Part shown: positions 195 to 39,786 of the stretch, one piece after another
How the letters are laid out: every line of letters starts with the position of its first letter
Position numbering within the stretch: the first letter of the stretch is position 1
Assembly (NCBI GenBank): GCA_029778565.1
Contig: JAKOQC010000575.1
Span: forward strand, 1 to 50,237
From: a bacterium
GTDB taxonomy: Bacteria > Patescibacteriota > Saccharimonadia > CAILAD01 > BJGX01
Length of the DNA stretch: 50,237 bases
Direction of reading: 5' to 3'
Made by a program: the position numbers and the translations under genes
The notes under the pieces: model-generated
Database searches by the model: none
Seen by the model: the letters and a program-made list of their open reading frames with translations, nothing else
Told to the model about the DNA's origin: nothing

Positions 195-789
195 ACTCTC
201 GAACCAAGGTGTTCTTATTCATCAAGACAATAACCACGATGTCTTTAGTACCTCGGTAATTGGCAATAGTATTTATGGCAATGGTCAGTTTGGAATAGAC
301 TTAGCGGCCGATAGTGGCGGAGAAGGTACTGCCGATACTGACCTTGGCCCGAATTTATTAAATGATTATCTTATGAGTTATCCGACTACACTGGCAAACT
401 ACTACCTTAACAGACCAGTTATTAATTCTACGAGCTTTAGTGGGAATCAACTAACAATTGGCTATAACTTTACTGCCAATCAGGCCGATAATAGCACGCT
501 ACTTCAGACAGACGTAATTGGTTATCGTTTAGACTTTTATCTCAATGAGGGTAGTCAGGATGGTGCCTATGATGGATATAGTCAAGGTAAAACACACCTT
601 GGTAGCTTTGTAGTCGATGGTTCAGAAACCAATGCAAGCCATACTTTTACTAGCCCGGTAAGTCTAAGTAATAGTCAAAATATAACTACAACAGCAACAG
701 TCTTGTGGAGAGTGATACCAATTGATGAATGTAATGTTAGTACTAGTGTCTATGGGTCTGGACCACCATATTCAGCGTGTCCAATGTAA
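195..789 (+). pseudogene. 5'-truncated parallel-beta-helix surface protein, C-terminal part only
   Basis: Frame from ~201 reads NQGVLIHQDNNHDVFSTSVIGNSIYGNGQFGIDLAADS...LGPNLLNDYLMSYP..., matching the C-terminal half of the 3456-5252 product; no N-terminus or signal peptide upstream. Confidence 0.7.
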
Positions 790-812
790 CATTTGAGTTA
801 AAAGGAGTTATT

Positions 813-1121
813 ATGAAGAAAAATCTTGGTAAAGTAGCAAAAACATTAATAGTTAGTTTGGCAATTGCATTGTTAATTAGTGTAGTAAACATGAGTGTAA
901 GTATTGCACAAGAAATAAACCCTGCTGACGGCACCTATAGTTATGGTTCTACCTCAGAATTTTCGCCATATGTTACCCTTACATCTAGCGGTACATTGGC
1001 ACCAACTGGCGATAGCCAAACTGTCGGTTATATAGCTGCTTTAGCCATGTTACTAGTTTCGGGCGGAATTGTTATTGCTGTAGTAAAAAATAAAAATAAT
1101 TTACTTAATAATAAATGCTAA
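813..1121 (+). CDS. Small secreted protein with LAPTG-type sortase sorting signal
   Basis: SD aaaggag before ATG 813; N-terminal signal peptide MKKNLGKVAKTLIVSLAIALL; C-terminus LAPTGD + hydrophobic span + KNKNN. Confidence 0.7.
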   Translation: MKKNLGKVAKTLIVSLAIALLISVVNMSVSIAQEINPADGTYSYGSTSEFSPYVTLTSSGTLAPTGDSQTVGYIAALAMLLVSGGIVIAVVKNKNNLLNNKC

Positions 1122-3409
1122 AATTTCGCATATTACTACCAATACTACTTGGCCTGTTTTTGATGTTTGTATTTAGTAATACGGCTAGTGCAGCAAATTA
1201 CGATGTAACAAACACTGACGATAGTGGCGCAGGTAGCTTAAGACAAGCAATATTAGATGCCAATGCAAATTTAGGTGCCGATACTATTAGCTTTGCAATT
1301 GCAGGCGCGGGTGTACATACTATTACATTGGCAAGTGATCTGCCAGATATTACCGATACCGTTACTATAGATGGCACCACTCAGTCTGGCGCTAGTTGTG
1401 GAACCTTGGTACCATCCTTACCAGCTAACTCAAATACTCCACATACCCTTCTAATAGAAATAGATGGTAGTCAGCTTAGCGACCCTGGATTTTCTTACCA
1501 AGTAGGTGTACTTCGCATAGAATCTGGTGGCGATAACACTATAATAAAAGGCTTAATAATAAATAATGCTGGGCAGAGTGGCTTTGAAAGTGTTAATGGT
1601 ATTGCTACAAAGGCAAGTGGTGATGTTATTTCGAATATCTCTATTAACTGTAATTATATTGGTACCGACCCTACCGGAGATTCTGCAGAGGCAAATTTAC
1701 AAAATGGTATTTATATTGATTACGGGTCGGTTTCTGGGTTAACAATTCAAAACAACGTAATTGGTGGGAACGGCAAAGCTCAAATTTATCTATTGGGTAA
1801 TAATTCTACTATTGATATAGACCACAACCTTATAGGTTCGCAGGCAAATGGTACTACTGTACTTACAGGAGGCTTTGCAAATGGCGGGGTGAATTTTCAG
1901 AGCGCTACTAATGCTAACATTAATAACAATGTCGTAGTTAATCAGGTTGGAGGAATTAATGGAGGAGATACTCTTATTGACTCAGAAGTGAGTAATAACT
2001 ACGTAGGAGTGGGCCTAAATGGCAATTCTATTCCAAATGGTTATGGCATATATATTATCGCTGCAAATTTAACTCTTTCATCTAACCTAGTAGCAAATAA
2101 TACTCAGGGAGGCATTACTGTAGTGGCTGATGGGGCAAATATTAATGCTAATGAAATAAGAAACAATGATGTTAATGGTTTATATACTATTTCTATCTCT
2201 GATACAACTAATTTTATTGTACAAAATAATAATATCTATTCTAATAATGGAGAAGGTATTAACGTTCAAAGCTCTTATGGCGCATCTAAGACTCTCATTT
2301 ATAACAACAATATCTATTCGAATATAAAAAACGGGATTTTAGTCAATAATACAGGTCACGATATACAAATATACTCAAATAATATTGGCCTAGATGCGTC
2401 AAATAATCCGGCCGGCAATACCCAAGATGGTATTCGGTTGGGGAACGATAGTTATGATAGCACGGCAAGCCAGGTAACCATTGGAAGTGCTACAGCAGGG
2501 CAACAAAATGTTATTTCTGCTAACGGCGGTAGTGGGGTGCATATTACTAATACTTCTTGCGGAACCACAACATTAAATACGTTAATTGGTAATTATATAG
2601 GCACAAACACCTCTGGTACTATTGCTAATGGTTATGGCAACAGCCTATCTGGTGTTACGGTTAATGAATCAATTGCAAATTGTTCTAACCCAACTACTGT
2701 ATTAAAAAACCAAATAGGTGGTGATGGTCAGGGCGAACAAAATATAATTGCTGGTAATACTCAAGACGGTATTAGAATATTTCATGTGCCCGATGGCTAC
2801 CAAGATGATTGCGATTATGGCTTTGGGTTTACCGCATGTACGGGTTCTGATGTATTTAGTAATGTAGTTTTACCAAACACAATTTATGGTAATGGTAATT
2901 TAGGGGTAAATCTAGCAACAGATAACGATAACGACGGACAAGCCGATATAGATCTTGGGCCCAATGTATTAAATGACTTCTTAATAGATTACCCAGCCAG
3001 CTACTCGAATAATTACCTTAATCGTCCTACTATAACTTCGGCAGATATTAGTGGAAATCAACTAACAGTTGGATATAATTTTCAGGCACCACCCGGTATT
3101 ACGCCAAGTGATGATGGGTATAGCTTATTACCAACCGACTTACTCGGTTATCGATTAGACTTTTATTTGAATAATAATGCTCAAGATGGTGCTTATGCCG
3201 GATATAATCAGGGCAAAACGCACCTTGGTAGCTTTGTAGTTGATGGCTCAGAAACCAATGCTACCCATACATTTACTAGCTCGATACCACTCGATGGTAA
3301 TCAGAGTATTTCTGCGACTGCTACAATATTATGGAAAAACATTACTTGTCAGCAAAGTGGCTTTATTCGACAAGGCGATGGACCGCCATATCAAGGCTGT
3401 ACCGATTAA
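1115..3409 (+). CDS. Secreted right-handed parallel beta-helix repeat protein with DSGAGSLRQAILDAN N-terminal motif
   Basis: Signal peptide; NTDDSGAGSLRQAILDANAN motif; many NN-G-I / NGI repeats; start overlaps the upstream stop. Confidence 0.85.
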   Translation: MLKFRILLPILLGLFLMFVFSNTASAANYDVTNTDDSGAGSLRQAILDANANLGADTISFAIAGAGVHTITLASDLPDITDTVTIDGTTQSGASCGTLVPSLPANSNTPHTLLIEIDGSQLSDPGFSYQVGVLRIESGGDNTIIKGLIINNAGQSGFESVNGIATKASGDVISNISINCNYIGTDPTGDSAEANLQNGIYIDYGSVSGLTIQNNVIGGNGKAQIYLLGNNSTIDIDHNLIGSQANGTTVLTGGFANGGVNFQSATNANINNNVVVNQVGGINGGDTLIDSEVSNNYVGVGLNGNSIPNGYGIYIIAANLTLSSNLVANNTQGGITVVADGANINANEIRNNDVNGLYTISISDTTNFIVQNNNIYSNNGEGINVQSSYGASKTLIYNNNIYSNIKNGILVNNTGHDIQIYSNNIGLDASNNPAGNTQDGIRLGNDSYDSTASQVTIGSATAGQQNVISANGGSGVHITNTSCGTTTLNTLIGNYIGTNTSGTIANGYGNSLSGVTVNESIANCSNPTTVLKNQIGGDGQGEQNIIAGNTQDGIRIFHVPDGYQDDCDYGFGFTACTGSDVFSNVVLPNTIYGNGNLGVNLATDNDNDGQADIDLGPNVLNDFLIDYPASYSNNYLNRPTITSADISGNQLTVGYNFQAPPGITPSDDGYSLLPTDLLGYRLDFYLNNNAQDGAYAGYNQGKTHLGSFVVDGSETNATHTFTSSIPLDGNQSISATATILWKNITCQQSGFIRQGDGPPYQGCTD

Positions 3410-3455
3410 GACACTGTCTAGATATCTGGGAATTGATAAGGTATACTTTAATATT

Positions 3456-5252
3456 ATGAAACGCTTACGGTTGTTAATACTTGTAACTTCAGCTTCTTTA
3501 ATTGCATCAGTTGCTTTATGTGTCTCAACAGCCCATGCTGCAGATTATCCGGTTACTACTACTGCCGATTCTGGAGCTGGTAGTCTTCGGCAAGCAATCT
3601 TAGACGCTAATGCCAACCCAGGAGCAGACAGCATTAGTTTTGCCATTATTGGTGGTGGCGTACAAACCATTACACCGGCATCAGCATTGCCAGACATTAC
3701 TGATCAACTAACCATTGACGGTACCACACAAAGCGGAGCTAGTTGTGGAACACTAGTACCAGCTAGCTTGCCAGTGAACAATAATACACCGCACAATCTA
3801 TTAATAGAGATAAATGCGAGTGGCGCAAGTGGAATAAATGCTTTACATTTTACAACTGGCTCTACAAATTCAGTCGTAAGGGGTTTAGTAATGAATGGAA
3901 CTACTAATAATGCTGCTGCACTCTCAATAGATTCAACTGTAGGGGGTGTGTTGGTTGAGTGTAATTATATTGGTACCAATGCTAGCGGCAGTACTATAGT
4001 GGCTAATTCTGGTGCCGACATTTATGCCTTTGTTAATAATAGTGGGAATGTTTTTCAAAACAATTTAGTATCCGGCTCGAACTCAGAAGGTATTGTTATT
4101 AGTACTGGTACTTTTCAAAATAACTTAGTTGGTACTGATGCAACCGGTAAAGTTGCGCTTGCTAATAATACATATGGTGTTTCGACTGCAGATGGTACAA
4201 ACGTTACTATTTATCATAATGTTATTGCAGGTAATAATAACAATGGCATTTTTATGGGCGCAGCTACTCAAATTACCATTACCGGAAATTATATTGGCTT
4301 AAACATAGAAGGTAATCCTTTAGCAAATAATGGTAATGGTATTACTGCCTATGGAACAAGTAATTTTTCTATTGGTGGAACATTGGCGAGCGAGAGAAAT
4401 ATTATTTCTGCTAACAATAATAATGGTATTCATCTTTATAGAGATTGTAGTGCTAATGGTAATACTACTAACTCCACAGTGTTTAATAATTTTATTGGTA
4501 CCAAGGCTAATGGGGCAGTACAGGCTGGGTATGGTAACGGAGCTGCGGGAATACAAGTTAATGAATTCTATGGTGGCTGTGTTTCTGTGTACAAACACCA
4601 AATTGGCGGTGATAATACAGGCGAGCCAAACATAATTGCCGGCAATACGAATCAGGGTATTTTAATTCACCAAAGTGGTGCTCAAGATGTGTTTAGCGTG
4701 AGTGCTGTAAATAATAGTATTTATGCCAATGGTCAATTCGGTATTGATATTGCCTCTGATAGCAATCAAGACAACGGAATTGCCGATACTGATCTCGGGC
4801 CTAACCTGCTTAATAATTACTTGATGTCTCTGCCTACTGATGGTCATGCTAATTACTATTTAAATAGACCGACCATTACCTCTACGAGCTTTTCCGGTAA
4901 TCAATTAACTGTTAATTACAACTATACAGCAAATATGGCAGATAATGTTTCGCTGAATCAAGCAGATGTAGTTGGTTATCGCTTAGATTTTTATCTAAAT
5001 GACAATTCACAAGATGGTGCATATGTTGGGTACAATCAAGGTAAAACACACTTAGGATCTTTTGTTGTTAATGGAAGTGAAACGAATGCCACACATACAT
5101 TTACGAGCTCTGTTTTATTAAGTGCAGATCAATCAGTTAATGCAACCGCAACGGTATTATGGAAAAACATACCACAATCAGTATGTTCTAACCCAAATGC
5201 TTATTATGGTAATGGGGTACCGTATGATCCTTGTACTCCACCACAACCGTAG
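3456..5252 (+). CDS. Secreted right-handed parallel beta-helix repeat protein, paralog of 1115-3409
   Basis: ATG 3456 gives signal peptide MKRLRLLILVTSASLIASVALC; TTADSGAGSLRQAILDANANPGADSISFAI shared with the upstream paralog. Confidence 0.85.
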   Translation: MKRLRLLILVTSASLIASVALCVSTAHAADYPVTTTADSGAGSLRQAILDANANPGADSISFAIIGGGVQTITPASALPDITDQLTIDGTTQSGASCGTLVPASLPVNNNTPHNLLIEINASGASGINALHFTTGSTNSVVRGLVMNGTTNNAAALSIDSTVGGVLVECNYIGTNASGSTIVANSGADIYAFVNNSGNVFQNNLVSGSNSEGIVISTGTFQNNLVGTDATGKVALANNTYGVSTADGTNVTIYHNVIAGNNNNGIFMGAATQITITGNYIGLNIEGNPLANNGNGITAYGTSNFSIGGTLASERNIISANNNNGIHLYRDCSANGNTTNSTVFNNFIGTKANGAVQAGYGNGAAGIQVNEFYGGCVSVYKHQIGGDNTGEPNIIAGNTNQGILIHQSGAQDVFSVSAVNNSIYANGQFGIDIASDSNQDNGIADTDLGPNLLNNYLMSLPTDGHANYYLNRPTITSTSFSGNQLTVNYNYTANMADNVSLNQADVVGYRLDFYLNDNSQDGAYVGYNQGKTHLGSFVVNGSETNATHTFTSSVLLSADQSVNATATVLWKNIPQSVCSNPNAYYGNGVPYDPCTPPQP

Positions 5253-20065: not shown

Positions 20066-20479
20066 ATGAAGATCTTTGTTTGTTGTAGTAAAGCGTTTTA
20101 CCCACGTGTTGCGCCCATTAAACATCAGTTAGAAGCAATGAGACACACCGTAACTTTACCCAATAGTTATGACAATCCAGGTAGAGAAGTAGAAATGCAT
20201 AATTTAGGCGCCAGAGAGCATGCGCAGTGGAAAGCCAGTATGCTTCGCTTGCAAAAGCAAAAAGTAGAAGACTGTGATGTTATTTTGGTACTTAACTTTA
20301 CTAAAAATGGCGTGCCTAACTATATCGGTGGAGCAACTTTTCTAGAGATGTACATGGCTTTTGAGGCTAGTAAACCAATTTTTCTGTACAACCAAATTCC
20401 CGAAGGGATGCTATGTGATGAAATACTGAGTTTTGAACCAACTGTAATTAATGGCGATCTTCAATTAGTTAGAATCTAG
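20066..20479 (+). CDS. Small Rossmann-like protein, possibly nucleoside 2-deoxyribosyltransferase-like
   Basis: MKIFVCCSKAFYPRV...DCDVILVLNFTKNGVPNYIGGATFLEMYMAFEASKPIFLYN; aaggagg SD. Confidence 0.6.
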   Translation: MKIFVCCSKAFYPRVAPIKHQLEAMRHTVTLPNSYDNPGREVEMHNLGAREHAQWKASMLRLQKQKVEDCDVILVLNFTKNGVPNYIGGATFLEMYMAFEASKPIFLYNQIPEGMLCDEILSFEPTVINGDLQLVRI

Positions 20480-20498: not shown

Positions 20499-20514
20499 AT
20501 GTTAGAATATATCT

Positions 20515-21006
20515 AACCCGCAAGCGTTTCGGGTTCTACAACGGCTTGGCTTTGCCGAACCTTCCTACGAGTAACGAAAAGCTGACACACGAACGTGATA
20601 AGGGAGAGAAAAAGTAAACGCTTCTCGACCTCCGGATAATCCGCCAACCGGCGGACGGAGCAAAATGCGGAAGTGGATCTGCAAAGATAGCCAGGACTAA
20701 GGCTTAAAAGCAGCCCTAGGTTTAAAGAGTGCGTAACAGCCCACTGGTTCGAGTAGGTCTGCTCTGCAACGCACGTAGGTACACTTGGTAATGCCGGTAT
20801 CGTGCTCGGTTGGGCCTAGTGCTCCATTTTGTACCAACTCCACTGCACGCAGCCGCGGTAACAGTGGTGTAGGGTAGAGGGCTGTGCCAAGCAGCTTGCT
20901 GCCACGTCTGGAAGGAAGAAGTGCTTCGGTGCGTAAACTTTCAGTCGGTACCGGTGTGGTAGGCAGAGATTCGCCCATAGTCTCTGTCTACCCACCGGGT
21001 TTTTTA
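20515..21006 (+). ncRNA. Large structured non-coding RNA with 23S GTPase-centre-like and 16S 530-loop-like domains
   Basis: -10-like tagaat 20503-20508; closing helix aacccg 20515-20520 / cgggtt 20996-21001; aagcgttt 20522-20529 / aaacgctt 20616-20623; rRNA-like segments at 20685-20762 and 20840-20867; 12-bp hairpin 20958-20992, then T tract. Confidence 0.75.
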
Positions 21007-21056
21007 TTTACGTGCGCTTTTTGTTCGCCGGTAATTATTCATAGTACAATAGAGTA

Positions 21057-39222: not shown

Positions 39223-39253
39223 GGGGTGGACGCCACTTGGGCGCTTGGTCGAG

Positions 39254-39736
39254 TCAGCGACCCATCGGGAAACCGTACTGGAGTCCCTCGGTGCTGACAC
39301 AGAAAGCAGGGGCCGACTCCTGCTTGTCGAACGGCACGGCCTGGAAGGCCGCGATGCCGAACGACTGCCCGTCCGGGCTCACCTCGACCGGGGCGGTGCA
39401 GCGCTTTTGCGCGGCCTCACCCTGGGTCCAGGTGGCGACGAGCTGATCACCCTTCCAGGTGACGCTCATCGTCTTCAGCGGCCCGACACCGGGGTTGGTG
39501 TCGTTGAAGCGCGCCCGCAGCACGGCCTCGGCCTTGCTGCGGGTCTCCTCCCGCTGAGCCTCGCCGTTGTCACCGCGCGAGGCGATGAAGGCGATGACGA
39601 GAGCGACGACGACCGCAACGGTGGCGATGATGAGCACCCACGGGTTGCGGGTGCTCTGCTTCGCCTTGGAGGGCTGCGGCTCGACCTTCGCCTTGGAGGG
39701 CGAAGGACCGGTCGGCTGGTTGATGGTGCTGGTCAC
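39254..39736 (-). CDS. GC-rich single-TM extracytoplasmic protein, paralog of 39932-40510
   Basis: GTG start at 39736; TM VLIIATVAVVVALVIAFIA; RCTAPVEVSPDGQ...AVPFDKQESAPAFCVS aligned to neighbour HCTAPVNAPSDQ...AVPLENLASARYKCVA. Confidence 0.8.
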   Translation of the reverse strand: MTSTINQPTGPSPSKAKVEPQPSKAKQSTRNPWVLIIATVAVVVALVIAFIASRGDNGEAQREETRSKAEAVLRARFNDTNPGVGPLKTMSVTWKGDQLVATWTQGEAAQKRCTAPVEVSPDGQSFGIAAFQAVPFDKQESAPAFCVSTEGLQYGFPMGR

Positions 39737-39786
39737 TTCTGACCACCTTACCTTTCATCTTGTCTTGGAACGATTGGAACATTAGC

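Follow-up and report, generated by a model that had tools for sequence, protein, structure and literature searches.

The imitation of ribosomal RNA by another RNA is known from cis leaders that regulate ribosomal-protein genes. Known L10 leaders lie in cis to rplJ and are without the L11-binding core of the 23S GTPase-associated center (GAC); CsrB and 6S RNA, by comparison, are protein-sponge RNAs. The GAC ranks with the most thoroughly studied RNA-protein sites, and standard L11 and L10 binding assays make any proposal that it is imitated elsewhere directly testable. In the account of Iben and Draper (2008) given by PMC4538822, the L10 leader of rplJL mRNA (Rfam family RF00557) mimics the L10(L12)4 site of 23S rRNA; the L10(L12)4 complex binds a kink-turn and UAA that are common to 23S rRNA and to its own mRNA leader, a molecular mimic (PMC4538822; PMC10931766). 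A survey of the open-access literature, a scope outside which most subscription papers fall, returned cis leaders with rRNA mimicry, no free-standing mimic, and none in Saccharibacteria.

The RNA described here is encoded in the window (that is, the whole stretch of DNA analyzed, 50,237 nt), which is contig C282 of assembly G000. This assembly comprises 2.25 Mb in 633 contigs, is larger than its relatives and is probably a mixed bin. The gene order at the locus is tpiA, ppa, a GNAT acetyltransferase gene, an ORF assigned to no Pfam family, the intergenic RNA, the dUTPase gene (dut) and pcrA/uvrD. Thus the RNA is not upstream of rplJ, its neighbors being a hypothetical ORF, dUTPase and pcrA/uvrD, and no RF00557 hit was obtained, either at the gathering threshold or with the cutoff relaxed to E ≤ 10. 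The ORF immediately 5' of the RNA (20066-20479) encodes 137 aa, and related DNA also precedes the RNA in one relative (G001). Elsewhere in the window, three consecutive ORFs (373-5252) contain similar repeats (NYYLNRP...) and apparently encode related proteins, and at 39245-39742 two opposite-strand ORFs (160 and 165 aa) overlap almost fully; the one on the + strand is very rich in R, G, D and L, and likely only one of the two is real.

The putative noncoding RNA is about 495 nt long (20514-21009, ends approximate; this and all window features below are on the + strand). Homologs occur between ppa and pcrA in three genomes of the same family, G001, G004 and G010 (the last on record JACDEK010000087.1, Candidatus Saccharibacteria); in each the RNA is upstream of pcrA, with ppa farther upstream where the contig extends. 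In all four carriers it begins right after a TGnTAnnAT box, in the window the putative extended -10-like promoter element TGTTAGAAT (20500-20508), and its 3' end is a strong hairpin plus T run, which is predicted to fold as an intrinsic-terminator-like element (20951-21005 in the window). No -35 consensus was found near the -10-like element and a promoter scan gave no sigma-70 site there; a simple terminator scan misses the 3' hairpin, for which a bulge probably accounts. The folding z-score of the RNA is -3.07. Its longest internal ORFs encode 93 aa (opposite strand) and 57 aa (RNA strand), and homolog lengths differ by about 200 nt. Because the RNA always occurs just upstream of pcrA in the window family, it might be regarded as a cis-acting leader of a downstream gene (dut/pcrA in the window, or the uvrA neighborhood in f7, a second Saccharibacteria family considered below). 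This is highly improbable, however, given that the RNA ends in a terminator hairpin before dut, that an opposite-strand ORF lies between the RNA and pcrA in G010, that uvrA is convergent in f7, and that neither pcrA nor uvrA codes for a ribosomal protein.

The Rfam model of bacterial LSU rRNA matches window positions 20669-20769 (69.3 bits, E = 1.9e-18; model positions 1071-1169 of 2925). The GAC is the sole 23S portion matched in the RNA, which is not collinear with a 23S gene; outside the GAC, Rfam 15 gave no credible match, the only matches being far below gathering scores. Local alignment of the RNA to 23S rRNA scores 69, and the best of 200 dinucleotide shuffles reaches 29. The assembly's complete 23S and 5S genes are located not in the window but on contig C35, and the C35 gene can be taken as the resident type because its GAC differs by a single base from the GACs of same-family genomes G006 and G007. 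(A second, divergent 23S gene of the same assembly, on C217, fits a mixed bin.) Over 85 nt, the window GAC shares 75% identity with that of C35 and is therefore neither an rRNA gene nor a recent copy. These comparisons uphold the central proposal of an earlier, sequence-only reading of this DNA, namely that a GAC mimic is embedded outside 23S rRNA: aligned to the genome's own 23S rRNA and to the Rfam model, the segment is not identical to the resident gene, which lies elsewhere; the re-paired stems postulated by that reading are recovered both by structural alignment and by RNAalifold; and the motif recurs at the same locus in G001, G004 and G010, although in degenerate form in the last of these.

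The GAC module (20673-20764) is delineated by the Rfam match, by RNAalifold covariation over eight GACs and by a structural alignment made by hand; the GAC secondary structure is present in the window segment in both the Rfam and the RNAalifold analyses. It consists of an H42-like stem (20673-20682 with 20753-20764), a 5' bulge, AAAGATA (20683-20689), and the GAC core (20690-20748). By the hand alignment, the core includes an A1067 loop, UAAAAGC (20705-20711), equivalent to 23S 1066-1072; it also includes an A1095 loop segment, GAGUGCGUAACAGCCC (20727-20742), equivalent to 23S 1087-1102. The extent proposed earlier (20685-20762) was too small, in that the feature takes in H42 with its 7-nt 5' bulge and lies within the larger RNA, and two of the proposed helices have to be redrawn. 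A CUA/UAG pairing (20697-99/20717-19) is impossible in the relatives, whereas ACU/GGU (20696-98/20719-21), the equivalent of AUG/CAU in 23S rRNA, is kept in G000, G001 and G004; and a GUG/CAC pairing (20729-31/20742-44) would require base 20744, which is already used by the CCAG/CUGG helix. That reading also missed the larger RNA, the L10 kink-turn bulge and the 16S-like loops described below.

Conserved structure extends beyond the GAC. In the 5' domain a predicted hairpin, CCGGATAATCCGCCAACCGGCGGACGG (20632-20658), is kept in G001. On the 3' side are a long-range helix, GGUACA (20778-20783) with UGUACC (20830-20835), in which four of six pairs show changes on both sides among the four carriers; a pseudoknot, CUUGGU (20784-20789) with GCCAAG (20886-20891), with 100% of cells paired and two pairs changed on both sides; and a hairpin, GGUAG...CUGCC (20873-20903), which presents the 3' side of the pseudoknot, is likewise 100% paired and shows both-side changes in two of its five outer pairs. 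When the four genomes are aligned 3' of the GAC (143 columns), the hand-derived structure, pseudoknot included, retains 95% of pair cells, a fit that is somewhat inflated inasmuch as the structure was read from the same four sequences on which it was scored. Both-side changes occur in 14 of 30 pairs of this part, as compared with a mean of 5.3 in shuffles, none of which (0/500) reaches 14; and sliding the pairing partners by 1-3 columns destroys the covarying structure.

The RNA family is rare. A model of the part 3' of the GAC matches only the four carriers among 393 class genomes and 380 phylum genomes (overlapping samples); a weak match of this model (R1) in G021 turned out to be that genome's own genuine 16S rRNA. 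The same part gave no plasmid match, and no exact copy of the A1095 segment was found in viral contigs. Matches in phages and plasmids are accounted for by 23S copies, not by the window RNA, and a viral-contig match to a composite pattern sits in an ordinary coding region; besides G001 and G010, genome matches to the composite patterns (GAC then 530 loop; 790 loop then GAC) look like chance (Colwellia, Idiomarina and a beta-proteobacterium). Among f1 genomes (L041-L054) the ppa-pcrA interval is variable, holding the RNA, other ORFs or nothing. The RNA is missing from this slot in G002, G003, G005 and others and, being absent from so many relatives, is therefore dispensable.

Certain hairpins resemble functional loops of the small subunit. 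In the window these are a 16S h18 (530-loop)-like hairpin, AACUCCACUGCACGCAGCCGCGGUAACAGUGG (20836-20867), identified by local alignment to 16S rRNA, and an h16-like hairpin with a UUCG loop (20914-20944), identified by such alignment and by homology to a G001 segment. Against Saccharibacteria 16S rRNA, the G001 RNA scores 42 at h16, 39 at h18 (the 530 loop) and 27 at h24 (the 790 loop), the shuffle maximum being 28, so that the 790-loop match in G001 alone is borderline by score; the same 13-nt loop, GGATTAGATACCC, recurs in G010, however (score 26, shuffle 95% level 25). The 530-loop match also scores 39 in G010, above every shuffle, as in G001, and 29 in the window (shuffle 95% level 25, maximum 32). 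Taken alone, the h16-like hairpin of the window scores 25, which equals the shuffle 95% level, and its assignment rests on homology to the G001 segment that scores 42. The 790 loop thus occurs in two relatives (G001 and G010) and the window is without h24. The module order (h24, GAC, h18, h16) matches no rRNA, and modules are lost one at a time: G004 retains only the GAC, and the 530-loop letters are absent there. That the locus is a decayed or misassembled rRNA fragment is scarcely credible: the rRNA similarity is genuine, but the 16S and 23S pieces are scrambled, the changes are compensatory and synteny is kept in four separate genomes, conservation that already contradicts such an origin.

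GACs outside 23S rRNA are not confined to this locus. Using the G004 GAC as a DNA query over 295 class genomes, together with a pattern search over 194, and inspecting surplus matches, five further genomes were found, all in the other family (f7): G054, G519, G104 and G073, in which the GAC lies between a DedA-family gene and uvrA (neighbor names here being read from ORFs rather than from a family search), and G520, in which it occupies a different locus. Surplus matches in G101, G524, G573, G630 and G055 proved to be additional 23S genes or to reflect mixed bins. The loci of G054, G519, G104 and G520 match no Rfam family, nor is there a clear 16S-like module in the RNAs of these four. The RNA of G520 (C4; L083 1112-1476, minus strand) is about 365 nt long, with the A1095 segment intact and the A1067 hairpin replaced; that of G073 (C1, about 251440-251540; L112, about 1040-1140) is a compact RNA of about 100 nt in which both loops (UUAGAAGC and GUGCGUAAUAGC) are kept and most stem letters are changed.

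Altogether, eight intact GACs outside 23S rRNA (those of G000, G001 and G004 plus the five of f7; the degenerate G010 GAC being left out) represent two families and three loci. In all eight the A1095 segment (1087-1102) is nearly unchanged and the 5' bulge ends in GACA (GATA in the window), is seven bases long except in G104, and lies opposite a short 3' bulge. Five retain the A1067 loop, slightly altered, and three (G054, G519 and G520) have a rebuilt one; the H43 stems are re-made in several. RNAalifold, given no hand structure, recovers H42, H43 and H44, with both-side changes in 7 of 19 pairs, and the G010 GAC, although excluded from the model, is recovered at E = 5e-8.

The f7 GAC letters depart from the resident 23S rRNA and are closer to other bacteria (the G054 GAC is 58% identical to its own 23S and 77% to that of Actinomyces oris), a divergence that may reflect either old age or foreign origin. 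In G054 and G519 (L082 and L084; G104 is L085) the letters are nearer to Actinomyces/Streptomyces 23S than to the resident 23S. The foreign look of these GACs, along with the loss of modules singly among relatives, is what would be expected if rRNA segments had been captured by recombination (for example, through uptake of host DNA) and served as stable building blocks, not mimics, of a structured RNA with some other function. We think this unlikely: it is the A1095 loop and the bulge that are kept rather than the stems, and the same GAC is found at three loci, in RNAs that are otherwise unrelated.

The Actinobacteria on which Saccharibacteria live produce antibiotics directed at the ribosome, and the modules correspond to known antibiotic sites: thiopeptides at the GAC, streptomycin at the 530 loop, and pactamycin or kasugamycin at the 790 loop. 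Hence the RNA could be a decoy that soaks up a ribosome-attacking agent, as a scrambled collection of functional-center loops and the affinity of f7 GACs with other bacteria would suggest. Yet three GACs lack the A1067 loop, h16 is not known as a drug site, thiopeptides require L11 besides the GAC, and such a sponge would have to be abundant; a drug decoy is thus decidedly unlikely. Another doubtful possibility is a multi-site ribosome decoy, in which a single RNA displaying loops of both subunits (530, 790, h16 and GAC) traps their recognizers, the GAC letters in other Saccharibacteria being fitted to a foreign ribosome, perhaps that of an actinobacterial host, instead of to the resident one.

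What the compared sequences contain, then, is a conserved, co-varying predicted fold bounded by a terminator-like hairpin and bearing a GAC in which the A1095 segment and a 5' bulge that terminates in GA(C/U)A are present, together with, in the window family, loops that resemble 16S h18, h16 and h24. The parts that are kept are those recognized by L11 (the GAC core) and by L10(L12)4 (the kink-turn), and for this reason the most likely interpretation is a free-standing structured RNA in which the base of the ribosomal stalk is reconstructed away from the ribosome as a decoy or scaffold for L11 and L10(L12)4, a proposal to which we assign an even chance of being correct. According to this proposal, the RNA would be transcribed and folded; L11 and L10(L12)4 would bind it as they do 23S rRNA, L10 also as it does the rplJ leader; and binding would titrate or store the stalk-base proteins or, alternatively, the RNA would present a stalk to which translational GTPases are recruited; in this way the capacity for translation would be coupled to some signal. 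The 16S-like loops would then act as additional baits, each of them dispensable on its own. Against this stalk-base proposal, not every carrier keeps the full L11/thiopeptide site, given the rebuilt A1067 loop of G054, G519 and G520 and the degenerate GAC of G010; many relatives do without the RNA altogether; nor is any target gene evident.

The assembly that includes the window encodes L11 (80% identical to that of same-family G005), and searches of G001, G004 and G010 returned no L11. A correlation between L11 loss and the RNA was considered and rejected: G000 and G005 have L11, and its absence elsewhere is not evidence because G004, of which 74,970 of 927,416 bases (8%) are masked as N, also lacks nusG. 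RelA-type factors, which the sequence-only reading had named as possible partners, are a weaker candidate: RelA/SpoT is present in f7 and was not found in the four carriers of the window RNA (masked stretches limit this search), and a RelA role in the window family is therefore unlikely.

How, then, does this RNA compare with known systems? With the 23S GAC (H42-H44) it has in common the fold, the A1095 loop and the kink-turn bulge, but it is 75% identical to the resident copy, has re-paired stems and lies outside any rRNA operon. With the L10 leader (RF00557) it would share mimicry of the 23S L10(L12)4 site, kink-turn included, inasmuch as the bulge geometry is kept; the former, however, is a cis leader of rplJ, whereas the window RNA is free-standing, has unrelated neighbors and combines a GAC core with 16S-like loops. 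The leaders for L20, S15, S4 and L1 (PMC7247131, PMC10931766) similarly set rRNA-like contact nucleotides within a re-made scaffold, but each of them imitates the site of a single ribosomal protein and regulates its own operon, and the window RNA is not in such a 5' UTR. Like CsrB and 6S RNA, the window RNA is free-standing and would imitate a protein's nucleic-acid partner, although here that partner is rRNA. The occurrence of stalk-site RNAs in distant cousins suggests an undescribed kind of ribosome-imitating RNA, best explained by rRNA mimicry having moved from cis leaders to trans. If so, a free-standing stalk-base RNA, joined in one lineage by 16S loops, would represent a regulatory or defensive RNA among bacteria whose genomes are very small; and if the combination of sites from both subunits were shown to function as a composite, it would constitute a new kind.
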